From IMG/VR virus record IMGVR_UViG_3300037042_004000, positions 1-64,000 of that record: 64,000 nt of DNA; one strand, written 5' to 3'. The notes below the pieces were generated by a model. The model was not told the DNA's origin, did not search any database, and saw nothing but the letters and a program-made list of their open reading frames with translations. Position numbers and translations under genes: made by a program. The DNA comes from a virus. Shown in pieces: positions 2,905 through 13,692 of the stretch (positions are counted from its first letter, which is position 1; each line of letters begins with the position of its first letter).

Positions 2905-4038
2905 ATGAAACTAATTCGCTCAACTAAACTCACACTCAAATTTGTCAATAAAAGTAAAAAACAACAATTACTACTCATTCTAACTGAATACAGTAAGGTT
3001 GTCAATTTCTTTATTGATTTGTTTTGGGAACAACCAATTTCAAAAAGACAATTATTAAAAACAGTATTGGCAAAAGCAGATACTTGGCTTTGTGCCAGAA
3101 CACGTAAGGTTGCTGCAAGGGAAGCCATTGATATGATTCGCTCTGCAAAGGAAGTTGCCAAAACTCGTAGCGAAGAACAAGAAAAAGAAGTCTTGCCATT
3201 AAAACCAGTGCATCACGGTAATCGTATGTGTTTTTCTTCTATGAATGTAAGATTGGAAACCAGTAAAACAAAACATTTTGATGCTTGGCTTCATTTATCT
3301 TCCATTGGTAATAAAACCATCATTGATTTACCCCTCAAAGGGCATAAACACCTGAATAAAATTAAATCAATGGGTAAGAGATTGGAGTCATACATTATTA
3401 CGCCTAATTATGTTCAAGTTTGTTATGAAATAAACACAGGGACAAAGTTAAATGATGGTGAAATGATTGGAATTGATACAGGGATTAATGCTTTGGCAAC
3501 ATTGGACAATGGACAACAATACGGCAAAGATGTTAAACAAAAGATTGAAAGAGTAAAACGATGCAAACATGGAAGTAAAGGACAACAAAAAGCTCGTAGG
3601 GCCTTGAAGCAATACATTGATGAGACTGCGAAAATAGTCACGAAAGACAAGCGTTTGGTAGTGGTTGAAAAATTACGCCAAATGAATTACAAAACAAAAC
3701 TCAAACGTCGCTTGAGCAAAAATATGCGACGATCTCTTGGTACATGGAATTATCGTTATTGGTTGATGCGGGTAGAAGCAGCTTGTGAGATTGGACGTTC
3801 CAGCTTCAGAAGCGTAGCCCCACAATATACCAGTCAACGATGCCAAGCATGTGGTCATACCGAGAGGGGAAATCGCAACGGAGAGATGTTCAAGTGTCGG
3901 AGTTGTGGTCATACTGACAATGCTGATGTTAATGCAGCCAAGAATATCTTGTTACGATTTACTTGCGGACAATACGGTGCCGCATTCAAACAGAAAAATG
4001 GTAAATTTAGGGAATCTGCTGTTGAGCAAGTTTCATGA
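2905..4038 (+). CDS. tnpB: TnpB-family RNA-guided nuclease (IS200/IS605 OrfB)
   Basis: 377 aa, a usual length for TnpB. RuvC-like motifs are in place: GIDTGINAL (Asp, about residue 188), VVVEKL (Glu, about 254) and NADVNAAKNI (Asp, about 340). The four-Cys zinc finger C-x2-C ... C-x2-C (CQACG, CRSCG) lies before the last motif. TnpB is known to cut DNA guided by an RNA from the element's right end and helps retain the element. No TnpA transposase is beside it, so it is a tnpB-only copy. The ATG follows a hairpin with no Shine-Dalgarno. It is unrelated in sequence to the second TnpB at 4547. Confidence 0.9.
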   Translation: MKLIRSTKLTLKFVNKSKKQQLLLILTEYSKVVNFFIDLFWEQPISKRQLLKTVLAKADTWLCARTRKVAAREAIDMIRSAKEVAKTRSEEQEKEVLPLKPVHHGNRMCFSSMNVRLETSKTKHFDAWLHLSSIGNKTIIDLPLKGHKHLNKIKSMGKRLESYIITPNYVQVCYEINTGTKLNDGEMIGIDTGINALATLDNGQQYGKDVKQKIERVKRCKHGSKGQQKARRALKQYIDETAKIVTKDKRLVVVEKLRQMNYKTKLKRRLSKNMRRSLGTWNYRYWLMRVEAACEIGRSSFRSVAPQYTSQRCQACGHTERGNRNGEMFKCRSCGHTDNADVNAAKNILLRFTCGQYGAAFKQKNGKFRESAVEQVS

Positions 4039-4341: not shown

Positions 4342-5883
4342 AACGCTTCGGCGAAAGCCACACCATCTACTGATGTTCGCCCTGTGAGCGGTGACGACCG
4401 AGCCGTAGGCGAGGGAGACAATGCGAACTAGGGCGAACCCTTGGGGTGTGGTAAGCCGAAGCATAGTGGAAGTCAGTCCAGAAATTATTTTGGAAATCGG
4501 AGGATTTTGTTGCTGAAATTTGTTCCCGCAGTAACTAGATAAGTGCGTGGACAAAAGACTCAGCCAACGCAAAGCGACACAGAAACGAAGGAAGACCCAG
4601 ACCTGTAAGGTCTATGAGGCGAAGATTGACCGCTCTCACCTCTCCGCTTCTGCTGTCAGTCATTTGTCCAGTTTGTTCAAGGAAGCAAAGTGGTTTTACA
4701 ACTTCTGTCTCTCCCACGACGATGTGGATGAAGTGGACACAAAACTCCGTACTATCCCCGTCAAGGTTGGTGATAAGGATAGTGACGAATATGAAGACCG
4801 AGACTTGTCCGTCCTTCAAGCCCAAATGAAACAGGGGATACAAACCCGACTCTTCGGTTCGTTGATGAGTCTTGCCGCCTTGAAGGAAAAAGGTTTCAAG
4901 GTTGGACGATTGAAGTTCAAGGGAGCAGTCAATTCCATTCCATTGAAGCAATATGACAAGACCTACTTCATTCGCAACGGCAAGGTGCGGATACAAGGAC
5001 TGAAACAATGGTTGAGAGTCAATGGACTTGACCAAATCCCTGCCGATGCGGAGATTGCTAACGCTACGCTGGTTCGGAGGCACGGAGACTTCTACATCCA
5101 TGTGACGACCTACCAAGAGAAGGAAGTGAAGGTTGTTCCCAATGCCGTAATAGGAATTGACTTTGGTTGCGACACTCAACTCACTTTCTCCAACGGCGTG
5201 AAGGTCAAGTTCCAAGTTCCGCCAAGCAAAAGGTTGCGTCGGCTTGACCGCAAGATAATGCGACGAGGGAAGAAGGCACGCTCCAACAACAAGACCAAAG
5301 ACCAAATCAAGAGACAGAAAGAATACGAACGAGTCACCAACAAGAAGAAGGATATTAGGCACAAATTGGTGAGTGCCATCACGAACAACTATCGGTATGT
5401 TGCGTTTCAGGATGATTCCATTCACGCATGGGCGATGGGTGGTCATGGGAAGAAGGTTCAACATTCGGGGATCGGCGGAATACTCTCCGACTTGAAGCAC
5501 AAGTCGGTAACGCCCCTTGAAGTGGACAAGTTCTTTCCTAGCACCAAACTTTGTCCGCAATGTGGAAAGAAGAACTCACCAACGCTTGCCGATAGAACAT
5601 ACGAATGCGATTGTGGTTTCGTCATGGATAGGGACTTGAAATCAAGCATTTGTATTGAGAACGAAGGATTGAAACAAATACCTACGGACTGTAGGGAATT
5701 TACGCTTGGGGAGATTTCGACCTCTACTTTCATGGGTGCATTGGCTAATATCCACGGCATTCATGTAAGCAAGTTGGAGTCGTTGAACCAAGAAGCCGCA
5801 GCACGCAGTGGACATGAGGATGTAGGGAGTGAGCGTAAGCGAACGACCAAAGCCTCATGTCGGCTTGCCCTGCGGTAAGTCAC
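4342..5883 (+). mobile_element. tnpB-only IS200/IS605-family element (1,542 bp)
   Basis: The left end begins right after TTAC (4338-4341) with AACGCTTCGGCG..., and the right end finishes ...CGGTAAGTCAC at 5883. Insertion 3' of a tetranucleotide without target duplication is typical of IS200/IS605 single-strand transposition; IS608 also targets TTAC. Boundaries are fixed by comparison with the 100-bp copy at 9404-9503 and by exact restoration of the interrupted reading frame. By eye it is richer in G+C than its neighbours, suggesting recent arrival. Only tnpB is present, so movement would need TnpA in trans. Confidence 0.9.
4547..5878 (+). CDS. tnpB: TnpB-family protein of the inserted element
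   Basis: 443 aa from a GTG start. RuvC-I is GIDFGCDTQL, the zinc finger is CPQCG ... CDCG, and RuvC-III is DRDLKSS. At the RuvC-II position the sequence is AFQDDSIHAW, where related TnpBs that I recall usually have Glu (FQDE-type). This puts Asp in place of the catalytic Glu and may weaken or remove nuclease activity. It is distinct from the TnpB at 2905. The stop lies 5 bp inside the right end of the element. A guide RNA would be expected from the right end. Confidence 0.88.
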   Translation: MDKRLSQRKATQKRRKTQTCKVYEAKIDRSHLSASAVSHLSSLFKEAKWFYNFCLSHDDVDEVDTKLRTIPVKVGDKDSDEYEDRDLSVLQAQMKQGIQTRLFGSLMSLAALKEKGFKVGRLKFKGAVNSIPLKQYDKTYFIRNGKVRIQGLKQWLRVNGLDQIPADAEIANATLVRRHGDFYIHVTTYQEKEVKVVPNAVIGIDFGCDTQLTFSNGVKVKFQVPPSKRLRRLDRKIMRRGKKARSNNKTKDQIKRQKEYERVTNKKKDIRHKLVSAITNNYRYVAFQDDSIHAWAMGGHGKKVQHSGIGGILSDLKHKSVTPLEVDKFFPSTKLCPQCGKKNSPTLADRTYECDCGFVMDRDLKSSICIENEGLKQIPTDCREFTLGEISTSTFMGALANIHGIHVSKLESLNQEAAARSGHEDVGSERKRTTKASCRLALR

Positions 5884-6058
5884 TTGGATCTGCTTGAGCA
5901 GGTTGATTCATTCCTGCTAATGTAGATGCTCCTAAAGTTGCTGCTAGTACACCTTTTTTAGCCCAATCTTTCCAACCTTCATCAATAAATTCTGGATGTT
6001 GTTCAACGAGCCATATTTCGAAATTTTTCATATATTCCTAACTTATTATAATTTTACC

Positions 6059-6274
6059 TTACTTGTATAATTTCCGCAATATTTGTAAGTATCGAGTGAT
6101 TTCCAAAGCTTGTTTTTCTAGTTCATCAAATTGAGTTGCTACTTGCGGATATCGTTCTGCAACTTCAGAGAGCGAAGATCTAAAATCATTTCCTATTGTT
6201 ATCAAATCAAAAAGGTCGGCATATAAGCTGCCCGAGTTTGCTACCTCACCTAGATATTTTTTCCAAGTTTTCAT
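6059..6274 (-). CDS. small leader-bearing helical protein
   Basis: 71 aa. It starts MKTWKKYLGEVANS, with L-G-E at residues 8-10, very close to the T4 internal-protein leader MKTYQEFIAE. The rest is predicted helical, with many Leu, Glu and Gln residues. It starts 4 bp after the stop of the upstream minus-strand gene (6279), so the two form an operon. No Shine-Dalgarno is evident. Candidate internal head protein; no enzymatic domain recognised. Confidence 0.65.
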   Translation of the reverse strand: MKTWKKYLGEVANSGSLYADLFDLITIGNDFRSSLSEVAERYPQVATQFDELEKQALEITRYLQILRKLYK

Positions 6275-6278
6275 TATT

Positions 6279-6551
6279 TTATTTCAATTGCCATTTATGA
6301 GGTGTAGCTCTTTGTTCGCCAGACATATTATTTCCCAACAAATTAGCAGCTTGTTCTAGGAGTTTAGTGGCTTGTTGAATTTGTTGATTAAATTCTTTAA
6401 AACTTGGATCAATACCGAAGGTTGTACGGATTTGAGTAGCGAGAGATTGTATTTGATGTTCAGCACCAGCAATAGTGGTAGGTTCTAGAGCAGGTCCATC
6501 AATACTTGGTCTGTAGATATCATTTTCAGTAAATTGATAAAATGTTTTCAT
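6279..6551 (-). CDS. leader-bearing hypothetical protein
   Basis: 90 aa from ATG 6551, within a 42-bp palindrome shared with the divergent gene at 6568. The leader is MKTFYQFTEND, a T4-like capsid-targeting-type start with F-T-E at residues 7-9. The rest contains an amphipathic helix rich in Gln and Leu (about residues 40-75). An upstream in-frame start near 6689 is rejected because it would run antisense through the neighbouring gene. Candidate internal protein. Confidence 0.65.
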   Translation of the reverse strand: MKTFYQFTENDIYRPSIDGPALEPTTIAGAEHQIQSLATQIRTTFGIDPSFKEFNQQIQQATKLLEQAANLLGNNMSGEQRATPHKWQLK

Positions 6552-6580
6552 AATAATATATATTATTATGAAAACATTTT
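6539..6580. promoter_or_regulatory. 42-bp perfect palindrome holding two divergent start codons
   Basis: The sequence from 6539 to 6580 equals its own reverse complement. It contains ATG 6568 on plus and ATG 6551 on minus, separated by 16 bp centred on AATATATATT. Both genes therefore begin with the same codons for MKTF. There is no Shine-Dalgarno. The TATATA core is likely a bidirectional promoter that makes leaderless mRNAs. Confidence 0.8.
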
Positions 6581-6996
6581 TAGAATGGATAGAGGCTAAC
6601 AATTTAGAAGAGGGATTAGGGAGAAATCTTTTAACATTAGGTTTAATGGGATTAGGAAGTTTGGGGGCAGCGGGTTGTAGTGACAACAAATGCGTTAAAC
6701 AGAATCAACCAGCAGCGGCGGTTCAACAAGATCAAATAAACATAAATTTAGGTGGTGCTAGAAAAGTTACAGCCATCCTTAATGCTGGGGAGGATAATGG
6801 TAATGGAACGGTGAGATTTTTAGGAAGTAAATTATCTTTTAAAAGCAACAGTGATTTAGCGAGTCAATATGCTAAGACAGCGATTTTAAAGGCAGCGGGG
6901 TTATCTCGTGGTCACATACAAGAATTTGAAATTACTGGGACACAACAGCAGGGGAATTGGATTATTACTAATTTTCAATGGACGGGTGTAAAGTGA
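6568..6996 (+). CDS. leader-bearing protein with lipobox-like segment
   Basis: 142 aa. It starts MKTFLEWIEANNLEEGLG, close to the T4 capsid-targeting sequence; L-E-E at residues 13-15 is a possible cleavage site. A hydrophobic stretch (about residues 20-36) ends in LGAAGC, resembling a lipobox, so cleavage after the leader could expose a membrane or lipid-anchored segment. Residues 50-142 look like a beta-rich domain of unknown function. The start lies in the palindrome shared with 6551. It overlaps the following gene by 4-19 bp. Confidence 0.65.
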   Translation: MKTFLEWIEANNLEEGLGRNLLTLGLMGLGSLGAAGCSDNKCVKQNQPAAAVQQDQININLGGARKVTAILNAGEDNGNGTVRFLGSKLSFKSNSDLASQYAKTAILKAAGLSRGHIQEFEITGTQQQGNWIITNFQWTGVK

Positions 6997-7817
6997 AAGA
7001 GGAGATTTATCCTTTTACGGCGAATATTAAGAATCATGATGGCAAGTCTGTAACTATTTACATTGATCCCAACAAAAAAGAATTAGACAAATTAGATTTT
7101 ATGGACGGTGTACGAGCATTATTAGACGTTAAGAATTGTTATGCATGGGCAAATGCTTTTCATGCAACAATAATGAGGCAACTTAGTTTAAGCAATGCCA
7201 TTCCAGTTCTTCTTTTTTATGATAACCAGACAGAGATATATGTAATGGTTACAGATGCAAGCAGAAGTACGTTATGGCATGAGAATCCCAAAGTTGCTGT
7301 AGCGATAAGAAACCATCCTTATATAAGAAAATGGAAGAAGATAGAGATAGGTTATTACAATGAGGACATTGTAGGAGATTGGGAAAAAGCGAAGACATTT
7401 AAAGAGTGGTTACATACGAATCATGCCGAATTAGGGCGAAGATATCCTAAGATAAGAGGGTCGTCGGATCTTGTGGATGGCCGCAGAGTATCTGGAAACG
7501 TAGACAACACAAGTTCAATAGGTGCAAGTTTAACAAATTGGGTAGCGATGTCGGGTATACGGCGAATACCAGCGAGTGATTTTGAGGATTGGAATTCTGG
7601 ATATTTCCCAGATTGTAGGGCAGATGAACAACAAAAAGTTAAAGAATTGGTAGCCCAGATACAGAAATCTAATAGAATATCCCCATTGATAGTGGTGATA
7701 GATGCCAAAGGGCCATATGTATTAGAGGGAGTGCATCGTTACGACGCCTTAAAGATATTGAAAGCAAATTGGGTTCCAGCATTAATTGTGATAGATCAGG
7801 ATGAGGTTGAAATATGA
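6978..7817 (+). CDS. ParB/sulfiredoxin-like domain protein
   Basis: 279 aa from ATG 6978; GTG 6993 overlapping the upstream TGA is an equally good start. The C-terminal region (about 193-273) resembles a ParB/Srx-type fold: IRRIPASDF, then RISPLIVV, then the LEGVHRYDAL box (G-x-H-R, a nucleotide-contact motif of the family) and VPALIVID. The N-terminal 190 residues are not recognised, but residues 139-146 read KTFKEWLH, resembling the leader family internally. ParB-like domains serve in DNA binding, CTP binding or nuclease and kinase roles, and which applies is unclear. TGA overlaps the next ATG by 4 bp. Confidence 0.6.
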   Translation: MDGCKVKEEIYPFTANIKNHDGKSVTIYIDPNKKELDKLDFMDGVRALLDVKNCYAWANAFHATIMRQLSLSNAIPVLLFYDNQTEIYVMVTDASRSTLWHENPKVAVAIRNHPYIRKWKKIEIGYYNEDIVGDWEKAKTFKEWLHTNHAELGRRYPKIRGSSDLVDGRRVSGNVDNTSSIGASLTNWVAMSGIRRIPASDFEDWNSGYFPDCRADEQQKVKELVAQIQKSNRISPLIVVIDAKGPYVLEGVHRYDALKILKANWVPALIVIDQDEVEI

Positions 7818-8311
7818 ATTTTAAAGAGTGGTTATTTAGATCAGAGAATTATAATAAGAAAATTAGTTATAATATTTATAAAAATCCAGACAAAGCAGAA
7901 TTATTAGAGACATTGGAGAAAGACAAAAAAATTTCAAGGGCTATGTGGGATGAAGATTATGCTGGTAACGTAAGAGGGCTTTTAGTTGGAGAAGACATAT
8001 ATATTTGGCCTGAAAACGCAAGTATGCATTATGATATGGCAAGGGAGTACGACCTAAATTACAGAGTAGCATTTTATATTAATGACTGGTTAAAACTTAA
8101 TGGAAGCCACGGCGATTTAAGTAATGTAGAGAGGAATCCTAATTACATCAGAATGATGGATGGGTCAGAAGCAACATCTTCACCATCTTCTTTTACGACA
8201 AGGACTTGGAAAGACGTAATGAGAAGGCCAACGAAGGTTGAGCCGGGTGGGGCTTTTGCATTACCATATGAATCTAAGATTCCAACAATAGTTTCTCCAA
8301 CTATAAGATAA
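7814..8311 (+). CDS. leader-bearing hypothetical protein
   Basis: 165 aa. It starts MNFKEWLFRSEN behind GAGG, overlapping the previous gene by 4 bp. The middle (about residues 55-75) reads VRGLLVGEDIYIWPENASMH, a compact beta-hairpin pattern with a Trp-Pro and a His that I associate with small phage proteins but cannot name. The C-terminus is low-complexity and Pro/Ser/Thr rich. Together with 6568 and 6978 it forms a plus-strand operon of probable internal proteins. Confidence 0.6.
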   Translation: MNFKEWLFRSENYNKKISYNIYKNPDKAELLETLEKDKKISRAMWDEDYAGNVRGLLVGEDIYIWPENASMHYDMAREYDLNYRVAFYINDWLKLNGSHGDLSNVERNPNYIRMMDGSEATSSPSSFTTRTWKDVMRRPTKVEPGGAFALPYESKIPTIVSPTIR

Positions 8312-8713: not shown

Positions 8714-9076
8714 ATGGGAGCTACAAGCGTAACAGGCGTATCTGGAGTAGGTTCTGCTGAAGGTCATACAAAGGGACCGAATAATAGTCGCAATACATAT
8801 GTGCCATTAGTTGGCCCAAGAGTTATAGCTGCTGGTCATGGTCAATTATCTACTGGAACATTGGTAGTTTATATGCCAACACCGATACCTAACGGTGCGA
8901 ATTTAATTTTATCGGTTACAGAGATATTGGTTTCATCAGCAGTCACAAGTGATGCAGCCACTATTGGAGATGTAACATTAAACGTAGGTGGTGACTTAAT
9001 ACAGTTTACCATTAAAGGGACAAATAATAATTATGTTAATTGGCTAGTTGTTAATCCTGGATTTTTCATTGGTTAA
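8714..9076 (+). CDS. structural-type protein, MGA-S/T-SVTGV family
   Basis: 120 aa behind a strong AAGGAGAGG site. The Gly/Ser/Thr-rich N-terminus MGATSVTGVSGVGSAE and the K-GPNNSRNTYVPL block are shared with the tandem pair at 12816 and 13264. The rest is beta-rich with no charged helices, as in small capsid or tail decoration proteins. The strong ribosome site suggests high expression. It ends in a TTAA stop shared with the convergent gene at 9073. Function unproven; a virion surface protein is the best guess. Confidence 0.65.
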   Translation: MGATSVTGVSGVGSAEGHTKGPNNSRNTYVPLVGPRVIAAGHGQLSTGTLVVYMPTPIPNGANLILSVTEILVSSAVTSDAATIGDVTLNVGGDLIQFTIKGTNNNYVNWLVVNPGFFIG

Positions 9077-9532
9077 AAATAGTTTATTAAAATTGTTTCA
9101 TCCAATGGTGTAATATCTTGATCTAATTCAAAGACAGCTTCAACACAAATTTCATAATCTTTTAAAAACTCTTCATAGGTAGGAGGAATAATTAGTTCGC
9201 TTTTTGTTATTGCACATTGTCTGTTTTTGGCAAGTTGTTCATCAATATACTTGTCACTTTGTTCAATATATTTATTGGTATTATTAATTTGGTCAACAAA
9301 CACTTTAAATTCTGTTTTTAATTGTTCGTCGGTAAAAGAGAGTCTAAGTTTGTCACGGGCATTTATTTCATTTTCAGCCTTAACCAAATAGATCTGATCC
9401 GCTGTGACTTACCGCAGGGCAAGCCAGCTCCCTCGCCTGCGGCTCGGTCGCCACCGCTCACGGGTCAAACATCAGTAGATGGTGTGGCTTTCGCCGAAGC
9501 GTAGTAACATCACAAACCACATAAGTTTTCAT
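9073..9532 (-). pseudogene. hypothetical protein split by a 100-bp IS derivative
   Basis: The 5' piece is ATG 9532 to 9504 (MKTYVVCDVT) and the 3' piece is 9403 to 9073. Removing 9404-9503 joins them in frame as ...CDVTADQIYLVKAENE..., a 119-aa protein. As it stands, translation from ATG 9532 stops inside the element after 24 codons; only a TTG at 9387 could restart the 3' part. The body is helical and charged, with no recognised domain. Its start overlaps the stop of the upstream M23 gene by 4 bp, so it was the last gene of that operon. Confidence 0.85.
9404..9503 (-). mobile_element. 100-bp non-autonomous IS200/IS605 derivative
   Basis: On the minus strand it begins after TTAC (9507-9504) with TACGCTTCGGCG... 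and ends ...CGGTAAGTCAC at 9404. About 80 bases match the left end and about 20 the right end of the 1,542-bp element at 4342-5883, with everything between deleted. Such end-only copies are known as PATE or MITE-like derivatives and can be mobilised by TnpA in trans. It is inserted in opposite orientation to the full copy, in a different gene. Confidence 0.9.
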
Positions 9533-10080
9533 TTTAATAGTTCTGTTTTGTTTCTAGAATTTAGAAGGAATGGAGTGGGATCACGCAAAGCATCGCAAAA
9601 ACCTTGTGATGCGGTTGTTATTCCAGGAGCATAAAGTTCGATATGTAACATGTAACAGGAATGTCCTTGAATATCTGGTCTTTCTTTTACTTGTGGCAGG
9701 ACACGGGTAACGGAACCAATTGCTTCACCTTTTCTGACGGAATAACCTACAATCATTTTAGGATTAACCGCAATTTCGCCATATAAAATTACACCAGTGG
9801 CACCTTCAACAAGAATAGCATCAGTGTTGAGCCACCAAGAAGAATTATCTTGGGGTCCAGTAAAATGTTCAATACCAACAACTATTCCAGGTTCAACGGC
9901 GTGAACGACATTACCGTCATATGTATAAAGATCTACACCTGTATGTTTTGAATGTTTTCTTTGGACTCCAAAGGCCCCTGGATGATTTTCAACAGGGATT
10001 TTTGGGTCTAGAACGTCTAAGGGAAACCGCCATTTGGTAGCTTCTTTTAACGTATTAATAATGTCGAGGATGAGTGCCAT
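9529..10080 (-). CDS. M23 (LytM-type) peptidase domain protein
   Basis: 183 aa from ATG 10080 (MALILDIINT...). The M23 signature is HTGVDL (H-x3-D zinc ligands, about residue 63) followed by LVEGATGVILYGEI and MLHIELY near the C-terminus, where the usual H-x-H appears as M-L-H. M23 enzymes cut peptidoglycan cross-links, so roles in lysis or entry are possible. The 5' bases that look like a ribosome site (GGAGAAGGAGC) also encode the G-E-G-A of a CoaC Cys-loop in the same frame, so this may really be the C-terminal domain of a CoaC-M23 fusion broken by a frameshift at 10111-10115. Confidence 0.7.
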   Translation of the reverse strand: MALILDIINTLKEATKWRFPLDVLDPKIPVENHPGAFGVQRKHSKHTGVDLYTYDGNVVHAVEPGIVVGIEHFTGPQDNSSWWLNTDAILVEGATGVILYGEIAVNPKMIVGYSVRKGEAIGSVTRVLPQVKERPDIQGHSCYMLHIELYAPGITTASQGFCDALRDPTPFLLNSRNKTELLK

Positions 10081-10580
10081 TGCTCCTTCTCCATCATCCC
10101 CACAAGCCAATTTTTACTAATTGGTTCAACTAGATAAACATTTCCAAAATCTTTCACTTTGGACAGATGTTCTTTAGTAAGTGGATGCAAATACATATTG
10201 GTATTTGCGGTGGGCGCTAAGATAATTGGTTTATTCCAATCCCATGCTCTAAGGATGCTAGTAAGTAAATTATCACAAATACCATTTGCCATTTTGGCAA
10301 GGGTATTCATGGAGCATGGTGCAATAACAAGGACATGAGCCCATTTTCTTAATTCTATATGCAGGACTGGGTCATCTTTTTGCCATTGATTATCCCATCC
10401 ATTAGGTCTTTCCCATCGCCATTCATCATCATCTGTATACATATCTTCCCAGAAATTCATAAATTTCAAGGCACATGGAGTAGTCACAATTTTCACACTT
10501 CCCAACTCAGAAAGTGCTTGTCTTGTTTTTTCATAAAGGGTGGTAGCGACACTACCCGTTAGACCTAAAATAATGTTCAT
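10047..10580 (-). CDS. coaC: phosphopantothenoylcysteine decarboxylase (CoaC-like flavoprotein), frameshifted at the 3' end
   Basis: 178 aa as it stands. It has the flavoprotein start GLTGSVA, the catalytic-His segment HIELRKWAHVLVIAP, the NTLAKMANGICDNLLT helix and the PTANTNMYLHP loop that corresponds to the family's PAMN motif. CoaC decarboxylates phosphopantothenoylcysteine in coenzyme A synthesis using FMN. The conserved Cys loop is missing in this frame but present in the next one as LACGDDGEGAM, so a one-base loss, probably in the T5 run 10111-10115, has cut the protein. The ATG at 10580 is preferred over a TTG six bases upstream. CoaB lies just upstream. Confidence 0.8.
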   Translation of the reverse strand: MNIILGLTGSVATTLYEKTRQALSELGSVKIVTTPCALKFMNFWEDMYTDDDEWRWERPNGWDNQWQKDDPVLHIELRKWAHVLVIAPCSMNTLAKMANGICDNLLTSILRAWDWNKPIILAPTANTNMYLHPLTKEHLSKVKDFGNVYLVEPISKNWLVGMMEKEQWHSSSTLLIR

Positions 10581-10582
10581 TT

Positions 10583-10665
10583 CCAAGACCTAGACCTAGA
10601 CCAAGACCTAGACCAAGACCAAGACCAAGACCAAGATGAAGACCAAGATAAAGACCAAGGCCAAA
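10583..10665. repeat. hexanucleotide microsatellite (GACCAA/GACCTA)
   Basis: About thirteen copies of a 6-bp unit (AAGACC, TAGACC and variants) lie between coaB and coaC, right up to the coaC start. On the minus strand it reads CTTGGT/CTAGGT. It is outside the coding frame because TAG codons interrupt it. Such a repeat could vary spacing or mRNA structure before coaC. Confidence 0.85.
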
Positions 10666-10710
10666 ATGGGGACTCAGAATTTATTTTTTGAAATAATTTC
10701 ATGTAAGCAA

Positions 10711-11457
10711 CTACTCCTTAAATTCTTTTGCCCATCTTGCGGTGCGGCAGATTTTACTAGCGACGTGATTAGGATTATCAATTACACCTTTTTCCAATCT
10801 CATTGTATAATCTTTGCCTTTTTGCACAAGATGGAGGACATGGTTTCCTTGAACAATGGATAGCCAATCATTAGCGACTACAATATCGCAATCATTATCT
10901 TCGATGCTTTTTCTGGCAGCGGCGATTAATTCTTCTTGGGTAGCACCTACAAGTAATTTAAAGCCGACAAGTAGGGTGGTTGGACACCATTTTTTGACTT
11001 GACTAATTAATTTTGGAAGTGGTTTAAGATGGATAGAGAGAGCGTCATTTGAACGAATTTTACCATCAACTACATTTTCTACCCCATAATCGGAGACAGC
11101 AGCAGCAAGGACTGTAATATCTGGTTTTTGTTCTACTAGAATTTTTTCTAATAAAGCTGCATATTCATCAAAGGTTTTGTAGATATGTTCAGTATATTTA
11201 TCTTTTGCGAAATTCCAAAGACCATGAGCATCCAGTAATTTTCGCATATTAGTTTCATAGTCACTGGATAGGTTTAGATCAATATTTACGGTGAATGGGG
11301 AGTTGGATCGTTTAGCTCTAAGAAAGATAACTTCTTCACCCAATAAGAGTGTTTCATGTGCCAATTGCGCACCAAATGTTCCTTGGCTCATATTGGTGAT
11401 AGATCTAACTTGGTCGATTTTAATCTTTGTTCCGCCAGAAGTGATAAGAACTTTCAT
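10711..11457 (-). CDS. coaB: phosphopantothenate-cysteine ligase (CoaB-like)
   Basis: 248 aa. The family start VLITSGGTKIKID-VRSITNMSQG-FGAQLA forms the nucleotide-binding loop; TVLAAAVSDY (about 135) and GKIRS (about 152) match the substrate region, and LVGFKL (about 185) the conserved core strand. It joins cysteine to 4'-phosphopantothenate using CTP or ATP. Most bacteria fuse CoaC and CoaB in one polypeptide; here they are separate, with coaB first. The start overlaps the upstream gene by 4 bp. With 10047 it forms an auxiliary coenzyme A pathway, rare in phages. Confidence 0.85.
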   Translation of the reverse strand: MKVLITSGGTKIKIDQVRSITNMSQGTFGAQLAHETLLLGEEVIFLRAKRSNSPFTVNIDLNLSSDYETNMRKLLDAHGLWNFAKDKYTEHIYKTFDEYAALLEKILVEQKPDITVLAAAVSDYGVENVVDGKIRSNDALSIHLKPLPKLISQVKKWCPTTLLVGFKLLVGATQEELIAAARKSIEDNDCDIVVANDWLSIVQGNHVLHLVQKGKDYTMRLEKGVIDNPNHVASKICRTARWAKEFKE

Positions 11458-12815: not shown

Positions 12816-13247
12816 TTACGGAGTGTTTGGGTTGTCTTTTACGATATCCAGACCAAAACCAACAGTCAACACTTCGTACATAAATCTACCAACTTGGCCA
12901 GTAGAGCCAGATATGGTTGAATAAATGTCAAAGTGGTCAAATTGGTCATTTGTGTCATCATTTTTTACAACATACCAAGCAGTTGCTCGAATGTCGAGTT
13001 CATCTCTAGTAAATGGTGTGAGCATGACGACATATTCTGTTTCGCTTTTTGGAAGTGGACCTTCTGGAAAGTAGACAGTTGCTTGTCCCGCATATTGGTC
13101 TGTAGCATGTGCTGTTACAACTTCCCCAGCCATTACTACGTGTGGACAGAGTTGTGGAACGAAGAAATTTCGTCCATTGCTTGGTCCCTTGAGACCTGAG
13201 TTTGTAGCCGATCCTAATCCTACGCCTGTTACTGAACTTGCTCCCAT
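12816..13247 (-). CDS. structural-type protein, MGA-S/T-SVTGV family (copy B)
   Basis: 143 aa from ATG 13247 with AAGGAGA upstream; a longer start at 13310 would run into the neighbouring gene. The N-terminus MGASSVTGVGLGSA, the GPSNGRNFFVPQLC block and the C-terminal VGFGLDIVKDNPNTP are nearly identical to the adjacent gene 13264; the middle is more diverged. This is a recent tandem duplication with divergence in the central, probably exposed, part. It is beta-rich, and a virion surface role is inferred. A terminator follows at 12758. Confidence 0.75.
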   Translation of the reverse strand: MGASSVTGVGLGSATNSGLKGPSNGRNFFVPQLCPHVVMAGEVVTAHATDQYAGQATVYFPEGPLPKSETEYVVMLTPFTRDELDIRATAWYVVKNDDTNDQFDHFDIYSTISGSTGQVGRFMYEVLTVGFGLDIVKDNPNTP

Positions 13248-13263
13248 GATATATTTTCTCCTT

Positions 13264-13692
13264 TTATGGTGTGTTTGGGTTATCTTTAACAATATCGAGA
13301 CCGAAACCAATTGTTGTTACTTCAAACATGAATCTACCAATATCTTCGGTTTGTCCGCTAATTGTTGAATAAATGTCAAAATGGTCAAATTGGTTATTTA
13401 AGTCATCGGTTTTAACAACATAGTAATTTGTGGCAACAATATCGCCATCTTCTCTCACTAATGATGTTAGCATTACAACATAATGCACTTCACTTTTAGG
13501 AAGTGGTCCTTCTGGGAAATACACAGTGGCTCTTCCGCCAGCTTCTCCCCAAGGAGTTGTTTCAACTTCGCCAGCCATAACAATGTGTGAACAAAGTTGT
13601 GGGACAAAGAAATTTCGTCCATTACTTGGACCCTTGAGACCAGACTTTTCAGCCGATCCTAACCCTACGCCTGTTACTGAACTTGCTCCCAT
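13264..13692 (-). CDS. structural-type protein, MGA-S/T-SVTGV family (copy A)
   Basis: 142 aa, with AGGGAAA before the ATG. It shares both ends with 12816 (MGASSVTGVGLGSAE, KGPSNGRNFFVPQLC, DIVKDNPNTP), and its first part resembles 8714. No helices or catalytic motifs are evident; the sequence looks like a small beta-sandwich. Three copies in one window suggest an abundant structural component such as a head decoration or tail-surface protein. It is separated from 12816 by 16 bp, so they are co-transcribed. Confidence 0.75.
   Translation of the reverse strand: MGASSVTGVGLGSAEKSGLKGPSNGRNFFVPQLCSHIVMAGEVETTPWGEAGGRATVYFPEGPLPKSEVHYVVMLTSLVREDGDIVATNYYVVKTDDLNNQFDHFDIYSTISGQTEDIGRFMFEVTTIGFGLDIVKDNPNTP

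Follow-up and report, generated by a model that had tools for sequence, protein, structure and literature searches.

The window analysed here (bases 1-64,000 of a 74,322-bp IMG/VR record, whose remaining 10.3 kb are referred to as L002) contains a perfect 42-bp palindrome in which the starts of two divergent genes mirror each other, and which we regard as probably being a bidirectional late promoter, in the sense that two divergent promoters are superposed on one TATATA box, with leaderless mRNAs for capsid-targeted products and with arms homogenised by template switching. RNA polymerase carrying a gp55-like late σ factor would bind the self-complementary box in either orientation, and transcription would begin at, or 1-2 bases from, the A of the ATG on each side, giving two leaderless mRNAs, each of which would begin directly with the conserved first codons of a capsid-targeting leader of the T4 type (MKTF...). 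Both products, together with those of their downstream operon mates, would be packed into the prohead, trimmed by a gp21-like head protease and co-injected with the DNA. The symmetry itself would stem from the identical leader start on both sides and from a box that equals its own complement, the last differences between the arms having probably been erased by template switching between them (quasipalindrome correction) and not by the insertion of a ready-made cassette.

The palindrome (AAAATGTTTTCATAATAATAT/ATATTATTATGAAAACATTTT) is identical to its own reverse complement and is centred on AATATATATT, which agrees with the original prediction, and it is maximal, since it cannot be extended. 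It is the sole perfect palindrome of at least 16 bp in the 64-kb window, where arms of at least 21 bp would be expected by chance about 1e-7 times (8e-8, by arithmetic from the base composition, GC 0.354). ATG AAA ACA TTT is read on both strands, from 6568 (+) and from 6551 (-), so that the first four codons (MKTF) of both genes do lie inside the palindrome, as had been claimed, and the coding stretch common to both arms amounts to 13 nt, ATGAAAACATTTT (ATG plus AAA ACA TTT T per side). The 74,322-bp record contains a single copy of the palindrome, and no exact match to a 30-bp core of it was found in any other IMG/VR contig. Foldback reads can generate palindromes, yet here the flanks diverge immediately outside the palindrome, the match between the arms ending sharply past 21 nt, open leader genes and operons lie on both sides, and analogous pairs exist in independent assemblies; an artefact is thus extremely improbable and was rejected. 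The features of the region are the following:

6539-6580, both strands: 42-bp perfect palindrome containing both starts (from the sequence)
6557-6562, both strands: TATATA, single self-complementary late-promoter-like box for both strands, 5 nt from each ATG (putative function)
6568, plus strand: predicted transcription start at the A of the ATG, leaderless mRNA (from T4 geometry)
6551, minus strand: predicted transcription start of the minus-strand gene at the A of the ATG (from T4 geometry)
6568-6996, plus strand: 142-aa protein, MKTFLEWIEANNLEE/GLGRNLLTLGLMGLGSLGAAGC..., with a capsid-targeting-like leader, an LxE site and a hydrophobic stretch that ends in C; no known family for the body
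6978-7817, plus strand: second gene, with a weak ParB_N-like C-terminal domain (under the Pfam cut-off), overlapping the end of 6568-6996
7814-8311, plus strand: third gene, leader MNFKEWLFRSE
6279-6551, minus strand: 90-aa protein MKTFYQFTEND... (compare T4 ipI, MKTFKEFTSTT); body without known family
6059-6274, minus strand: second gene, leader MKTWKKYLGEV
5855-6031, minus strand: third gene, MKNFEIWLVEQHPEFIDE/GWKDWAKKGVLAATLGAS..., MKNF start; its leader region resembles genes of LR756511 and of contig G001

The 90-aa minus-strand frame is likely a real gene, because two further leader-starting frames follow it head-to-tail, and the three consecutive genes start with MKTF, MKTW and MKNF; of the plus-strand genes, the first has an MKTF start and the third an MNFKEW start. 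A search of viral contigs and phage records found no direct relatives of either palindrome gene, nor was a Pfam or PHROG family found for them, and the AlphaFold model of the 142-aa protein has a mean pLDDT of 38.8, which is too low for use. In some leader proteins, a signal- or lipoprotein-like basic and hydrophobic stretch comes directly after the possible protease site (GLGRNLLTLGLMGLGSLGAAGC; GWKDWAKKGVLAATLGASTLAGMNQPAQA), namely in 6568-6680 (+), 5920-6031 (-), L005:24780-25157 and G001:262865-263080; head-protease trimming might unmask an export signal for use after injection. As a separate observation, the C-terminus encoded at 5855-6031 (-) extends into the terminal sequence of a TnpB element, with 5862-5883 lying inside the 3' end of the gene. 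Three TnpB-like (IS200/IS605-type) genes were recognised by eye, at 2905-4038 and 4547-5878 of the window and at L002:8567-9538, and the end sequences of these elements match each other (4345-4417 with 9428-9500, and 5862-5883 with 9404-9425).

The record as a whole most probably represents part of a T4-related huge phage genome, as argued by its terminase (L002:1566-3446), which shows 50% identity to that of the unannotated 595-kb phage LR756511.1 and 61% to that of a 10.9-kb contig, by the collinearity of window positions 14.6-61 kb with the structural region of LR756511.1, by the T4-type baseplate wedge and hub families that were recognised, and by the head protease, head protein and late σ factor of its kin. 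Next to its portal, LR756511.1 encodes a head protease of the gp21 type and a major head protein of the gp23 type, and gp55-like late σ factors (E 1e-6 to 1e-8) were identified there and in the contigs G001 (527 kb) and G004 (508 kb). Both the late σ factor and the head protease are thus present in the kin, and neither was found in this 74-kb fragment. Some other features of the record can be mentioned. The portal gene (L002:4385-8200, record 68385-72200; 1271 aa) seemingly contains two inteins, as insertions beginning CLAGHTIIHT and CLVGDTRVRT. One small protein family has three copies in the window (8714-9076, 12816-13310 and 13264-13692); G001 has two matches to it and LR756511 has one, which is weaker. 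Finally, a flavoprotein-like pair resembling the halves of CoaBC lies at 9529-11457, with a DFP domain at 10711-11457, and 10047-10586 and 9529-10110 have neighbours of 50-54% identity in G001.

Gene starts of the type M-x-x-F-x-x-W-L are frequent in this phage. For the comparisons that follow, leaders were defined by the motif M-x(1-3)-[FYW]-x-x-[WFY]-[LIVM], which gave 89 genes from four of the five compared records, chance matches included. According to blastp, the MKT(F/Y)xx(F/W)-type tag sits on otherwise unrelated bodies. T4 ipI starts MKTFKEFT and encodes this start with ATGAAAACATTT, the same 12 bases as in each palindrome arm, while T4 ipII and ipIII start MKTYQEFIAEA, and on these grounds the leaders look like the capsid-targeting sequences of internal head proteins. 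The motif [LI]xE is the one recognised by the T4 head protease; within residues 7-25 it is present in 24 of the 43 leaders that have a promoter box (shuffled mean 14.6, p=0.001). The plus-strand product carries NLEE, and the minus-strand product has no clean site in its first 25 residues. In T4, a conserved capsid-targeting tag is likewise combined with diverse bodies, which are anti-defence proteins (PMC3012670, PMC9391042).

What lies between the two ATGs is AATAA-TATATA-TTATT, and this 5+6+5 layout is exactly what two superposed promoters of this class require. Across the leader class, exact TATATA is found upstream of 25 of the 89 genes, against a shuffled mean of 3.6, and exact CTAAATA upstream of 10 (0.5 when shuffled). 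The more general TANATA box ends 4-6 nt before the ATG of leader genes, with a peak at 4-5 nt (31 leaders), and both window genes have a gap of 5. The same 4-5 nt peak appears in 69 of 1179 other ORFs of LR756511.1 and G001 (about 6%), which points to a general late-type promoter of these phages and suggests that late mRNAs lacking a leader are widespread among them. A Shine-Dalgarno-like sequence precedes only 1 of 34 boxed leaders, versus 23 of 55 unboxed ones. In T4 late promoters, an 8-bp TATA box precedes the start by about one helical turn, its first T being at -13 (PMC2988020); measured in this way, a gap of 5 nt would make the A of the ATG the first transcribed base. The box consensus is different from the T4 sequence TATAAATA, which is matched at 7/8 positions or better in 14 of the 89 leaders (7.3 when shuffled); its late-promoter identity is deduced from its position and by analogy, and TATATA could instead be read by a host-type σ factor. 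With the ATGs at 6551 and 6568, the predicted starts would be 17 nt apart, which fits the spacing of 7-25 nt (mode 18) of symmetric bacterial bidirectional promoters (PMC10268837). The mirror-image promoter and start that the original prediction had assigned to the two divergent leader genes are therefore supported at the level of sequence, by the class-wide TANATA spacing of 4-6 nt from the ATG and by the one TATATA lying midway.

This arrangement has counterparts, as six further divergent leader-leader pairs with starts 10-30 nt apart were found in related phages (three in LR756511 and one each in G001, G002 and L094). Those with recorded starts are:

LR756511.1, first divergent leader pair: 269324/269344
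LR756511.1, second divergent leader pair: 398764/398794
LR756511.1, third divergent leader pair: 473532/473554
G001, divergent leader pair: 370707/370737
G002, divergent leader pair: 10434/10445

All six have TATATA or TANATA between the starts, and a perfect mirror exists in none of the five measured in the kin (LR756511, G001 and G002). In these five, 17-21/33 of the initial coding bases agree and the half-spacers match at 2/9, 6/14, 3/10, 7/14 and 4/5 positions, against 21/33, with the first 13 unbroken, and 8/8 in the window. Searching for pairs of MKTF starts in mirror arrangement, at a distance of 6-36 nt, gave two contigs only, G001 and L017/G002, and says nothing on the frequency of mirroring, since it selects MKTF on both sides. 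Another scan, for a box between TTCAT and ATGAARAC, returned 39 matches, the sole true leader-leader pair among them being that of L094 and the others being short or non-leader frames. The 79% self-match over 76 nt of the G001 pair was considered as a decayed inverted duplication and rejected, because a palindrome counts its positions twice and unrelated leaders reach similar identity.

Could the palindrome have another main role? Operators for dimeric DNA-binding regulators typically take this form, with a perfect dyad spanning a divergent promoter, so a binding site of that kind has to be weighed; against it, the dyad exists as a single copy in the record and is not conserved at the other divergent leader pairs, and the conserved leader codons and the spacer fully account for most of each arm, which makes this reading very unlikely. 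Regarding RNA, a transcript across the palindrome would fold into a hairpin of -17.2 kcal/mol (z -7.7) with both start codons buried and a UUUU end on both strands, as a terminator or attenuator would. Yet the stem is nearly all A-U, no gene ends at the palindrome, which sits between two divergent starts, and neither predicted leaderless mRNA includes the hairpin, their isolated 5' ends being unstructured in computed folding; this reading has hardly any probability left and was rejected as well. The contrast between these open 5' ends and the buried start codons of a crossing transcript counts in favour of the bidirectional promoter.

How the two arms became identical is a different question, which concerns only the homogenisation step and not the bidirectional promoter. 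Convergence without any copying would merely need the same leader start on both sides and an AT-rich symmetric box, and some data go in that direction: exact ATGAAAACATTT is used by 7 of the 89 leaders, stretches of about 35 nt are 85-89% identical between leaders of phages that are not related, and the box is symmetric by nature. However, every one of 3915 other leader pairs has at least two mismatches among the 18 positions between -5 and +13, an independent-site estimate puts a match like that of the window at 4e-4 (about 1e-4 to 1e-3) even if both genes start with MKTF, and at about 1e-6 to 1e-7 otherwise, and the measured divergent pairs of the kin are without mirror symmetry. Protein selection, codon usage and the symmetric box thus explain most, but not all, of the match, and convergence alone appears possible but rather doubtful. 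The argument for a homogenisation step is accordingly one of probability, and its candidate mechanism has been described: quasipalindrome template switching, first seen in T4 rIIB and yeast CYC1, perfects imperfect inverted repeats (PMC7202029), and it also acts in coding DNA (PMC8604942).

The original prediction had proposed that promoter-plus-leader units spread like interchangeable cassettes, by duplication or inversion, so that one unit would have been duplicated in inverted orientation and units would move between bodies. The second part finds some support. G001 370737 and LR756511 473554 are orthologous from residues 12 and 24 on, respectively (63% over 145 aa), and have different leaders and unrelated divergent partners, with only the MKTF start in common, which implies that leader junctions change over long times, as in T4, where one leader is common to ipII and ipIII and their bodies differ. 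Mobile regulatory cassettes have reportedly been put forward for T4-type phages already (by Arbiol in 2010). The first part fares worse. The identity of leaders at synonymous codons is 0.483 within a genome, which is no higher than the 0.472 seen across genomes or the 0.43-0.52 expected from codon usage, so this comparison gives no sign of recent leader spread within one genome; the arms stop at 21 nt, beyond which the minus-strand gene goes on with its own type of leader (YQFTE); and no second copy has turned up, in the record or as a core in other contigs. Inverted cassette duplication is therefore unlikely, and template switching is preferred due to the abrupt arm ends, the own-type leader of the minus-strand gene and the lack of a within-genome synonymous excess.

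The individual parts of the proposed device are already known from T4, and it is their compact superposition that is unusual. The genes for IPI, IPII and IPIII share with those of the window the short N-terminal MKT(F/Y)xxF/W tag on unrelated bodies, the first 12 bases of ipI and a gp21-type protease (here in the kin); unlike them, the T4 genes share a single strand over the stretch read, without divergent pairs, and ipII and ipIII have AAAGGA-type ribosome sites. The T4 proteins are packaged and cleaved, and those of the window are likened to them from sequence alone. T4 late promoters (gp55/gp33/gp45), which the predicted promoter of the window resembles, lack a -35 element and have their TATA-type box some ten bases ahead of the start. 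The gap between T4 genes 4 and 53 is divergent too, with two opposed TATAAATA boxes in 47 bp, but there the boxes are separate and Shine-Dalgarno sites are present, whereas in the window one box would serve both strands and abuts the ATGs. In T4 (NC_000866, 77338-77384), the two opposed boxes are exact and form an inverted repeat. Bacterial symmetric -10 promoters (PMC10268837, PMC12825309) are read both ways from a near-symmetric -10, with starts about 18 nt apart, as is proposed for the window; these are host promoters, often for an mRNA and a non-coding antisense RNA, in contrast to the two coding, apparently leaderless late mRNAs and the perfect 42-bp symmetry of the window. Compared with quasipalindrome template switching, in which imperfect inverted repeats are made perfect, coding DNA included, the window is known from its end state alone.

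As a tentative extension, to which we give well short of an even chance, superposed leaderless bidirectional late promoters would be a recurring device of T4-related huge phages, coupling two capsid-targeted genes and producing paired co-injected proteins from a single box, with arms kept symmetrical by recurrent template switching. The palindrome would be a naturally occurring example of a single box for two coding mRNAs and, if the homogenisation is true, of a template-switch palindrome within coding sequence. A further prediction of the reading is that these phages make many of their late mRNAs without a leader. In practical terms, the signature TANATA, 4-6 nt, ATG, MxxFxxWL may serve as a finder for candidate head-packaged, injected proteins in uncultured huge phages, and would be useful where the protein bodies match no family.
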